This document shows positions 23,232 through 27,769 of a stretch of 27,769 nucleotides of DNA, one piece after another (position 1 is the first letter of the stretch; each line of letters starts with the position of its first letter). Source of the stretch: a virus; IMG/VR virus record IMGVR_UViG_3300005355_000020, positions 1-27,769 of that record. One strand, written 5' to 3'. The notes beneath the pieces are model-generated. The model searched no databases. It saw only the letters and a list, made by a program, of their open reading frames with translations, and was not told where the DNA came from. Position numbers and translations under genes: made by a program.

Positions 23232-23696
23232 ATGGCTGTAGCCGTCTACCCGGCTCCGGGCTATGACAGCTTCATCAGCCTAGAGGATGCCAACGCATAT
23301 CTGACGAGTCTCGGTTACGCGAAAAACGTCTGGGACAACAAGTCGACGACTGAACGCGAAGCAGCATTGCGACGCGGCACGCAATTCATCTACGCACGTC
23401 GTCTTCGTCCTGAAGCATTGTGGGACACCACGACGACACCGGCAACGGCGCGTGTTCACCCGAATGTAGCCGCTGCGACAGCCGAAGCGGCACGTCGTCA
23501 TGTCGAGGGTAGCTTATACGGCGATCTTCCCTCTGCGCCAGTTCTAGAGAAAACAGTGGGACCGTTGACGCTGCGCTATGGTCAGCCGACTATCACCAGT
23601 GAAGCGGAACGATACCCCGTCATCACAGACTTGCTGTTTGGCTTGACTTACACAAGTGCAGCGGGCTTTAGTCCTGTGACTTTTGAAAGAGTCTGA
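23232..23696 (+). CDS. Head-tail connector, DnaT-like/gp6-like (154 aa)
   Basis: Opens MAVAVYPAPGYDSFISLEDA, then NAYLTSLGYAKNVWDNKSTT and REAALRRGTQFI, and contains RVHPNVAAATAEAARRHVEG and EKTVGPLTLRYG. This pattern (SF.SLEDA..YL...G, then A.EAALRRAT..I) is that of the DnaT-like/gp6-type head completion proteins that join portal and tail. The stop overlaps the next start (TGATG). Start with RBS AGAGGAATAACGCATC. Confidence 0.85.
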   Translation: MAVAVYPAPGYDSFISLEDANAYLTSLGYAKNVWDNKSTTEREAALRRGTQFIYARRLRPEALWDTTTTPATARVHPNVAAATAEAARRHVEGSLYGDLPSAPVLEKTVGPLTLRYGQPTITSEAERYPVITDLLFGLTYTSAAGFSPVTFERV

Positions 23697-24465: not shown

Positions 24466-24872
24466 GCTTGCCGCAAATACGTCGTGCGCTAGAGAAGCAT
24501 CTTGCGGCGCTCATGCCGCCTATTCCAACATCATGGGACAACGTGTCGTTCTCTCCACCGGCTGATGGCTCGGTGTATCAAGAGGCGAAGCTCGTGCCTA
24601 ATAAGCCTAACGGCGAAATGATGGATACGCTCACGTTTATTGAACAAGGCTTTTTGCAAGTCGCGGTGTTCTATCCGCAGGGTAAAGGTCCAAGGGACGC
24701 TGAGAACCGAGTAGATGCATTGCGCGCTCACTTTCGTCGGGGCACTACTTTGATCGAAGGTGGCATCGAAACGAATATCACCGAAGTCCCTGAAGTAGCA
24801 GCCGGTCTGCCGGTAGAGGGACAGTGGCGAGTTCCGGTGACTATCTACTGGCAAGCGCAAGTAGCTAGTTAA
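24462..24872 (+). CDS. Tail terminator protein, DUF4128-like (136 aa)
   Basis: Begins MSLPQIRRALEKHLAALMPP, then TLTFIEQGFLQVAVFYPQGK and AENRVDALRAHFRRGTTL, ending RVPVTIYWQAQVAS. The mix of a first helix, a beta sheet and a second helix, plus the slot just before the tail tube gene, fits a tail terminator (DUF4128-like). The start at 24462 overlaps the upstream stop (ATGA). Confidence 0.82.
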   Translation: MSLPQIRRALEKHLAALMPPIPTSWDNVSFSPPADGSVYQEAKLVPNKPNGEMMDTLTFIEQGFLQVAVFYPQGKGPRDAENRVDALRAHFRRGTTLIEGGIETNITEVPEVAAGLPVEGQWRVPVTIYWQAQVAS

Positions 24873-24903
24873 AGATCAACGGTTCTTCTTTGAGGATCAC
24901 ATC

Positions 24904-26127
24904 ATGGCAATCGCAAAAGGTGCAAATAAGCTCCTAATCGCAAAACGGCAAACGGCGAAGGGCACGCTCGCTATTCCTTCTGTCGGCGGGCAGATCATTC
25001 GTCGTGACACATCGACCTTTGACCGTGCGAAAGAGACAACAACAACCGAAGCTGAACAGACATCGCGCAAGCAACTCATGTCGTCGCGTCACGGTGCTGT
25101 GACCGTCAACGGTTCTCTTGCTGCGCTGTTCTCGCCCGGTACATACGCGGACTTCTTCGCTGCGTTGCTGATGCGTGAGTTCACCGCAGTCGCGAACATC
25201 ACAGGCGTGACGGCAACGGTTGCAGGCAGCGGACCGACCTACACCATCACACGCACGACGGGCTCATGGCTCACAGACGGTGCGAAGATTGGGCGCGTCC
25301 TTCGTCCGACTGCGGGTCTTGCTGTGGGCTCGCGGCGCAATATGCTGATCGTCGGCGTGTCGGCGCTGATCTTGACGGTGATGCCACTCAATCGCAAAGT
25401 ACCGGCTATCGAAACAGCAGTCCCGGCGTGCACGTTCATTTTCCCAGGTGGCATCACGTATGTGCCTGAAACAGCGCACACCGACATTTACTACTCATTC
25501 GAAGAGTGGTTTCCTGAAGTGCCACGCAGTCAGGTCAGTCAGGACGTGAAGGCGTCGTCGGTGAACGTGCGCCTGCCTGGATCGGGCAATGCGGGTCTTG
25601 ATTGGACATTCCTGGGACTAGATCAGACCAAAGCGGCGACGCGCTACTTCACCACGCCGTTAACGGAAACGACGACAAGCGTCATGGTGGCAGCGGGCGG
25701 TGCACTGATCGTGAACGGCTCGCGGCGCGGCACAGTGACAGACCTTACCTTGACGCTCGATGCTCGCGGCGCGGTGGCTGATCCTGTCGTGGGCGACACT
25801 ATCCGGCCTGACGTGTTCACCGGCAAACTCATGGCGAGCGGTAGCTTCACGGCGTACTATGACACCGCCGAGATTCCTGACTTGTACGATGATGAAGTCG
25901 AGACAAGCATCGTGTCGGCACTGGCGGCGAGTTCATCGGACACAGCGGACTTCAACACGTTCTCGCTGCAAAAGATCAAGCTCAATTCGAGCACACCCGA
26001 TGACGTTGAAACCGGCCTGAAGCGCACGTATAACTTCGTCGCGCTCTATAACGATCTCGGCGGACCGGCACTTGCGGCGAGCGCGACAACGATTGAACTG
26101 CAAGACAGTGCGGTTGTTCCTTCGTAA
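24904..26127 (+). CDS. Major tail tube protein (407 aa)
   Basis: MAIAKGANKLLIAKRQTAKG, then RRDTSTFDRAKETTTTEAEQ and the beta-rich domain that includes GVTATVAGSGPTYTITRTTG. The whole sequence is typical of large siphovirus tail tube proteins with an inserted Ig-like or extra beta domain. It follows the tail terminator by 31 bases, a short gap without a clear promoter. Subunits stack as hexamers to make the tail tube. Confidence 0.87.
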   Translation: MAIAKGANKLLIAKRQTAKGTLAIPSVGGQIIRRDTSTFDRAKETTTTEAEQTSRKQLMSSRHGAVTVNGSLAALFSPGTYADFFAALLMREFTAVANITGVTATVAGSGPTYTITRTTGSWLTDGAKIGRVLRPTAGLAVGSRRNMLIVGVSALILTVMPLNRKVPAIETAVPACTFIFPGGITYVPETAHTDIYYSFEEWFPEVPRSQVSQDVKASSVNVRLPGSGNAGLDWTFLGLDQTKAATRYFTTPLTETTTSVMVAAGGALIVNGSRRGTVTDLTLTLDARGAVADPVVGDTIRPDVFTGKLMASGSFTAYYDTAEIPDLYDDEVETSIVSALAASSSDTADFNTFSLQKIKLNSSTPDDVETGLKRTYNFVALYNDLGGPALAASATTIELQDSAVVPS

Positions 26128-26145
26128 TTCAACAGGAGAACTATC

Positions 26146-27660
26146 ATGGCAGAAGATGGCGCAGACACCAGAGCGGCGGCTACAACTTTGACGGGCACGT
26201 TCACAGGTACGTTCACGGGTACGTTCTCTGCGTCGCCTGCGCCTGCGCCATCTCCGACACCAACACCGACACCTCCTGCGCCATCACCTTCGCCTGCGCC
26301 GACACCGGCACCTCCTGCGGTGCAGGCAGAGAGTCCCAATGGCACGACGATACCTGCCGATGGTGCTGTCATCATCGACGGCTCAGGCGCACGCTGGACC
26401 GTCACCGACGGTGTTGTTCGCCGTAACGGTGTTGATACCGTTTCATCGAATGTGCGCACGTTGCTTTACTACGGCGGCGTTGTCTATCAATCGAATGCGT
26501 CCGGTGGTTGGTGGAAGTGGGTAAGTGACGGTTGGCAAGATTCATTCGATCCGCGTGTGTCGACATCTACGCCGTCACCATCTCCTGCGCCTGGACCGGC
26601 ACCGGCACCATCGGCAGGAGTGCCCAACATCGCGAATGTTGCGCGGCATCCTGCCGACATGCTCGAAGTCGGGCCGTATTGGATTCAAGACAATCGCTGG
26701 GGGCAAGGCGGCATCAGCGAAGGTACAGCATCGTATCAATATCAACAGTCGCTTGAGCGTTCGCTGACATTGACACCGGCAGGTGCGTGTGCTGCCCGCA
26801 TAAAATGGAGTTGGCCCGAGTTCAATCAGCAGGGACAGAAGATCGACGGCAATGGTGCCTACAGCGAAGTCAAGGGCTATCCAAGCATCATCTATGGCAC
26901 TGCGCCTGGGGATTCTGGTCCGGATCAATGGCCTGCCTATATGTATGCCGTGCGGGCACCTGATGGCGTCACGGTGCCGTCGCCACCGAGTAACGCACCG
27001 CAGGATGTGTCGAGGAATTGGCAACCGCAAGGCGGCTCTGTGATTCGACGTGTGCCGTGCGGCAAGTCGCCGAGTGCAACACTCGTGCCGAAGCGACTAG
27101 GCATGGCACCGGGCTCGATTGTGGGTGACTTCAAGTGGAGCAAGGCTAACGCAACGGGCAAGGGCCATTTGTCCTGGGACATCTGGCTTCAAGAGACAAC
27201 CGATCAGGGCTTCGGTTTTCCGAATTCATCGGTGACGCACGAGATCATGATTCCAATGGGCAATTGGGGCACCTACGGGCGGCATCCGGACGGGCGCTAT
27301 TCCGGTTGGTACAGTCATGACACCGTCATTGATGGCGTTACCTATCACGTCTACATGGCCGGTGCGGGTTATACATTCGGCGGGCTTGCGGGCAAGTTCA
27401 CGAACGAAGAGACAGGCAAGCCGCGCACGGGTTGGAAGTTCATCGTGTTCCAGCACGACGGCGATAATCATCCGAAAGGTCCGGACGGCAATATTCACTT
27501 GGACTTTCCGAAGTTCTTCGCACATGCGGCGCAGTCCAAGTGGAACGGCGTGCCGATGGTTCGTGGCACTGAGTATTGCACCAACATACAACTCGGCGTC
27601 GAGATGGTCTATGGTGCAGGAGATTTGACCATCTACGATTTCAACATCACAGGAAAATGA
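26146..27660 (+). CDS. GH12-like endoglucanase/xyloglucanase candidate, virion cargo (504 aa)
   Basis: Residues 15-28 have a tandem GTF-TGTF repeat, then a Pro/Ser/Ala/Thr linker (33-60). A small beta domain follows (about 63-137: SPNGTTIPADGAVIIDGSG, then WTVTDGVVRRNG and GGWWKWVSDGW), resembling modules attached to bacterial and phage carbohydrate enzymes. After a second Pro linker, residues 165-504 show the GH12 pattern: VKGYPSIIYG, GHLSWDIWLQETT, THEIMIPMGNWG with Glu366 (expected nucleophile), YHVYMAG, WKFIVFQHDG, and IQLGVEMVYGAGDLTIYDF with Glu486 (expected acid/base). Such enzymes cut beta-1,4-glucans or xyloglucan. No signal peptide is present. It lies 18 bases after the tail tube stop, an unusual slot, so it is probably displayed on the tail. 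Confidence 0.8.
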   Translation: MAEDGADTRAAATTLTGTFTGTFTGTFSASPAPAPSPTPTPTPPAPSPSPAPTPAPPAVQAESPNGTTIPADGAVIIDGSGARWTVTDGVVRRNGVDTVSSNVRTLLYYGGVVYQSNASGGWWKWVSDGWQDSFDPRVSTSTPSPSPAPGPAPAPSAGVPNIANVARHPADMLEVGPYWIQDNRWGQGGISEGTASYQYQQSLERSLTLTPAGACAARIKWSWPEFNQQGQKIDGNGAYSEVKGYPSIIYGTAPGDSGPDQWPAYMYAVRAPDGVTVPSPPSNAPQDVSRNWQPQGGSVIRRVPCGKSPSATLVPKRLGMAPGSIVGDFKWSKANATGKGHLSWDIWLQETTDQGFGFPNSSVTHEIMIPMGNWGTYGRHPDGRYSGWYSHDTVIDGVTYHVYMAGAGYTFGGLAGKFTNEETGKPRTGWKFIVFQHDGDNHPKGPDGNIHLDFPKFFAHAAQSKWNGVPMVRGTEYCTNIQLGVEMVYGAGDLTIYDFNITGK

Positions 27661-27664
27661 GCAC

Positions 27665-27769
27665 ATGGAATTAGATCAAGTTCAAGAAGAGCCCAACACG
27701 CAACGCGTTGCCGTTGGCTGGGATGAAGAAGGCGAACCGACAGAAGGCTTCGTCATTGTCGGCAAGGAC
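27665..27769 (+). CDS. Start of a further tail gene, cut by window edge
   Basis: Only 35 codons are visible: MELDQVQEEPNTQRVAVGWD, then EEGEPTEGFVIVGKD. ACAGGAAAATGAGCAC precedes the ATG. In siphovirus order the gene after the tail tube is usually a tail assembly chaperone or a tail module; the acidic N-terminus would be compatible, but nothing more can be said. Confidence 0.7.
   Translation, partial: MELDQVQEEPNTQRVAVGWDEEGEPTEGFVIVGKD

Follow-up and report, generated by a model that had tools for sequence, protein, structure and literature searches.

Phage enzymes that degrade cellulose have been described for the Erwinia amylovora phage S6, which needs bacterial cellulose and encodes the cellulases gp094 (GH48) and gp095 (GH5); these are beta-1,4-glucanases, as is predicted for the protein analyzed here, and they are tied to cellulose as the first receptor (PMC9544554). 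However, S6 is a podophage, and its enzymes belong to other families, have other folds, and are encoded at another genome position. Beta-helix tailspike depolymerases are likewise hypervariable, exchangeable polysaccharide-cutting domains encoded among conserved tail genes; in contrast, the present domain is a predicted GH12 jelly roll, and its gene lies between those for the major tail protein and a chaperone, not among the tail-tip genes. Two described GH12 enzymes, the Bacillus licheniformis xyloglucanase (2jem/2jen) and Rhodothermus marinus Cel12A (2bw8, 1h0b), have the predicted fold, the motif WxWP...VKxYPxI, the Asp, and the Glu positions in common with the phage protein. The phage domain differs from them in being about 110 residues longer, with 19% identity over the structural alignment, and the phage protein lacks a signal peptide, is joined to a phage N terminus, and has a Pro where typical GH12 enzymes have a Trp after EIMI, so that its specificity may differ. 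GH12 proteins of Ramlibacter and Polaromonas (L012–L020) belong to the same subfamily (30–36% identity) and are interleaved with the phage copies in the tree, but they are secreted or lipoprotein forms, several of them with CBM-like modules, and are encoded outside any tail operon.

The window, i.e., the whole analyzed stretch of 27,769 nt, belongs to a tailed phage. Genes for primase/helicase, terminase, portal, head morphogenesis, scaffold, and major capsid proteins were recognized, together with adaptor, head closure, neck, and tail terminator genes, and within our best explanation the virus is a siphophage. The portal protein has up to 47% identity to those of the Pseudomonas phages Medea1 and phiAH14a; it had no match in 399 genomes of one order, a result that is uninformative on the host. 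The features of the locus are collected in Table 1. The original prediction turned out to be exact for the reading frame and the two glutamates, and the position right after the tail tube gene, the GTF repeat, the two Pro-rich linkers, and the lack of a signal peptide were all found as it had described them. No promoter-like site was detected in a scan of positions 24700–27769. Pfam and PHROGs revealed no recognized structural or virion-binding domain in the N terminus, and its match to phrog_15511 was discarded as probably due to low complexity.

Table 1. Features of the GH12 gene and its flanks in the window.
Feature	Position	Strand	Basis or remark
Major tail (tube) protein gene	24904..26127	+	phrog_290, E=4e-28; conserved in siblings; immediate upstream neighbor of the GH12 gene
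Ribosome-binding site AGGAGA	26134..26139	+	Sequence; just past the major tail protein stop
GH12-domain protein, 504 aa, without signal peptide	26146..27660	+	ATG at 26146, TGA ends at 27660; hydropathy comparison
LTGTFTGTFTGTF repeat, N terminus	26188..26226	+	Kept in siblings; candidate virion-attachment segment
Pro-rich linker 1	26230..26322	+	Translation of the ORF
76-aa Trp/Tyr-rich module (ESPNGTTIP...GGWWKW...DPR), unnamed	26329..26556	+	Also in other phage and bacterial lipoprotein glycosidase-like proteins
Pro-rich linker 2	26557..26619	+	Translation of the ORF
Predicted GH12-fold catalytic domain, residues 157–504	26614..27657	+	Profile, AlphaFold2 model, Foldseek
Asp345 in SWDIWLQ, invariant	27178..27180	+	Aligned with the Asp conserved in GH12
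Glu366 (THEIMIP), predicted catalytic nucleophile	27241..27243	+	Family alignment and profile match
Glu486 (LGVEMVYGAG), predicted acid/base	27601..27603	+	Family alignment and profile match
Tail-assembly chaperone gene, start only (cut by the window end)	27665..27769	+	Homologue in sibling L003 is phrog_313

Searches with the single 504-aa sequence did not yield a credible match among Pfam, NCBIfam, and PDB profiles; matches to narG and to Pro-rich proteins were noise. On its own, the protein has diverged too far to be caught by the Pfam GH12 model, and therefore, a family profile is needed to link it to GH12. The profile was built from 29 family members, with relatives drawn from viral contigs and genomes. 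It matched the B. licheniformis xyloglucanase BlXG12 with E=4.2e-16 and R. marinus Cel12A with E=4.5e-6, in both cases with both glutamates aligned, and other GH12 enzymes were matched as well. The motifs WxWP...EVKxYPxI, D[IL]WL, THEIMI, and GVExVxG were in register with GH12, and E366 and E486 fell on the catalytic glutamates of Cel12A. At the first of these positions, Cel12A has a Glu, while 2jem and 2jen have Q and A, which we take to be nucleophile mutants. PF01670, the Pfam GH12 family, was matched individually by 15 of the 29 members (best value 1.4e-9), and one relative (L048) exceeded the Pfam cut-off.

E366, E486, and the Asp are invariant across the 29 diverse members. As the first scans had been seeded on THEIM, the conservation of E366 was possibly circular, and two scans with motif-free seeds served as a control: A3 used just the N-terminal half and A4 just the C-terminal part. 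These recovered the same contigs and, in addition, a new clade (L085–L090 and L093), which also carries (S/T)HEIM and GVE. An artefact of the seeding was thus ruled out.

The structure prediction and the comparison with GH12, which the original prediction had proposed as a check, gave the same picture. AlphaFold2 reached a pLDDT of 28.8 with the single sequence and of 92.8 (pTM 0.92) with the family alignment. The predicted model is a beta-jelly roll, as in GH12, with E366 and E486 both in predicted strands. All 50 PDB matches listed by Foldseek were GH12 structures, the best among them being 2jem (E=1.7e-14, TM 0.82 on the target). Taken together, profile, Pfam members, model, and PDB matches establish the fold and the residues as far as prediction allows, and the claim that the C-terminal domain of 340 residues is GH12-like and has both catalytic glutamates is borne out. 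The protein almost certainly belongs to GH12, and it is very probably an active enzyme.

The original prediction had also proposed a small carbohydrate-type module. A 76-aa module is indeed present, but it could not be recognized as a CBM, as no credible match was found in Pfam or the PDB. It is also found in proteins of phages and in glycosidase-like lipoproteins of bacteria (L137, L138, L139, L142, and L167), in phage L137 together with another glycosidase-like domain. The C termini of the bacterial lipoprotein-type carriers look glycosidase-like by eye; Pfam gave no confirmation, and neither Pfam nor the PDB provided a family for these glycosidase-like partners. In Paraburkholderia sprentiae, a few genes separate the coding sequence of the module protein from that of an exopolysaccharide tyrosine autokinase. 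A carbohydrate-related role of the module may be suggested.

Phage proteins of no fewer than six unrelated architectures contain a domain of this GH12 subfamily. In L048, the domain is fused to a beta-helix and to PF09931, an N-terminal attachment domain of baseplate hubs, and L044 encodes a fusion of the baseplate-hub/beta-helix type that adjoins the tape measure gene. In L031 and L039, it is part of a fibre-like protein encoded beside head and tail genes, and in L032, it is joined to a CBM35. The segment that precedes GH12 and CBM35 in the latter protein (L032:3177-5417) resembles a phage neck or adaptor protein by eye, with no match in PHROGs. A phage protein of 1989 aa (L029:63-6032) combines a beta-helix with GH12, GH18-like, and GH8 domains to a four-part polysaccharide-degrading protein; the nearest structures to its GH8 domain are of the chitosanase/lichenase type. 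In L009:1761-5189, a beta-helix and the 76-aa module lie upstream, and a GH18-like domain is apparently inserted inside the GH12-like domain.

All nine bacterial forms have signal peptides, in agreement with secreted or lipoprotein enzymes, whereas the phage forms have no N-terminal signal, with the exception of L038. This contig encodes a lipobox and has no phage-like neighbors among the three that were tested, and it may be bacterial. Phage copies interleave with those of Ramlibacter and Polaromonas in the tree, branches with good support require four changes or more, and a single phage origin of the domain was rejected (p-AU 3e-5). The interleaving indicates that the source of the GH12 genes was probably Burkholderiales. 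The Ramlibacter and Polaromonas genomes G001, G002, G003, and G004 have 2 to 5 matches to the subfamily each, some of them in tandem.

The order major tail protein, GH12 gene, chaperone was observed in all 12 sibling contigs examined, some of which are near-copies of one virus. With these flanks, the gene is encoded among virion structural genes, as would be expected for a depolymerase. Among the large proteins encoded elsewhere in the tail region of one sibling (G005), Pfam detected no glycosidase. In more distant cousins, the tail protein gene is not followed by a GH12 gene; this applies to L158 (capsid 79%, tail protein 55% identity), to L161–L163 (tail protein 38–39%), and to phiAH14a. The presence in siblings and absence in cousins characterize the gene as an insertion that has been kept by this phage genus, and its absence in the cousins means that tails can be assembled without it.

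Comparison of the window with the closest sibling, L003, showed how variable this slot is. The GH12 ORF has 71–86% nucleotide identity, the bases after it have 96%, and the preceding genes for the major tail and neck proteins have mostly 94–100%, with one 250-bp bin at 80% near 23390–23639. The ORF is thus the most divergent stretch between the near-identical siblings. In this pair, the dS value is 0.65 for the GH12 gene versus 0.17 for the tail protein gene. Values of dN/dS of 0.03–0.19 reveal constraint by purifying selection. Two copies show frame changes: in L003:5563-5700, the reading frame shifts after the GTF repeats but before the Pro linker, which is either an assembly error or a broken copy, and in the sibling L011, the ORF is also interrupted, here within the catalytic domain.

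The gene diversifies faster than the neighboring structural genes not only in the comparison with L003 but also in that two clades occupy the one slot. The proteins of L085–L093 share the GTF segment and the 76-aa module with the window protein, but their GH12 domain is distant and groups with the Ramlibacter and baseplate-fused copies. One origin for all GH12 copies in the slot was rejected (p-AU 0.001). Judged from the sequences, the catalytic domain in the slot has been swapped for a distant GH12 domain at least once. Slot, divergence, exchange, and constraint together make up a pattern typical of receptor or depolymerase genes.

We therefore regard it as reasonably probable that the gene is an accessory gene of the tail operon and encodes a GH12-family endo-beta-glucanase that acts as a virion-attached depolymerase. 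The putative virion-tied role is well supported, if indirectly, by the slot, the lack of a signal peptide, the hypervariability, the domain exchange, and the hub fusions elsewhere. The protein could instead be a soluble auxiliary enzyme that is made late, is freed at lysis, stays off the particle, and attacks matrix or plant glucan to the advantage of progeny or neighboring hosts. The lack of a recognized virion-binding domain in the N terminus would fit, and so would the other glycosidases encoded by soil phages, which have been read as auxiliary genes (PMC6786970; PMC9485262). However, the tail-operon position in every sibling, the conserved GTF N terminus, and the baseplate-hub fusions of the domain in other phages make this unlikely.

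With regard to the substrate of the putative depolymerase, a beta-glucan of bacterial origin seems more likely than a plant polymer. An enzyme of GH12 fold whose target is an exopolysaccharide other than a glucan, e.g., a chitosan-like or mixed polymer, might be considered, because L029 joins GH12 to a chitosanase/lichenase-like GH8 and a GH18-like domain; yet the top folds are all GH12 enzymes for beta-1,4-glucan, mixed-linkage glucan, or xyloglucan, and we regard this option as improbable. Still further down the scale, a tail adhesin that has kept the GH12 fold and binds carbohydrate but no longer cuts would suit the atypical surroundings of the active site (the Pro after EIMI, the additional residues) and is very improbable in view of the invariant catalytic residues, the Glu motifs in the clade found without motif seeding, and the purifying selection.

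For the preferred reading, a virion-attached endo-beta-glucanase, we infer activity, virion location, substrate, and N-terminal attachment as follows. The GTF repeat and linker 1 would hold the protein on the particle, possibly beside the tail tube, and the 76-aa module would help to place the enzyme on carbohydrate. Hydrolysis of a beta-1,4- or mixed-linkage glucan would be the task of the C-terminal jelly roll, in which E366 and E486 would act through the retaining mechanism of GH12. The enzyme would thereby open a path through the host exopolysaccharide, or it would bind the exopolysaccharide as the first receptor. By analogy, the best reading is that the enzyme would be functionally like the S6 cellulases, from a different family. 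Tentatively, one might go further and imagine that many copies of the enzyme deck the tail shaft via the GTF N terminus and digest a beta-glucan matrix, and that the slot beside the tail tube gene exchanges catalytic domains following changes of the host polysaccharide.

Among 50,697 records of isolated phages, three diverse GH12 queries matched nothing, and no GH12 was present in the viral fold library. No description of a phage GH12 enzyme was found in the literature searched, which was covered in part, so that absence is not proof; matches to "GH12" by prefix concerned GH120/GH127-type enzymes. With this finding, the depolymerase repertoire of phages would gain a further cellulase family, and exopolysaccharide made of beta-glucan would be indicated as a barrier or receptor for phages. 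It also cautions that such genes should not be read as auxiliary genes of carbon cycling. The hypervariable slot would allow polysaccharide specificity to be studied.
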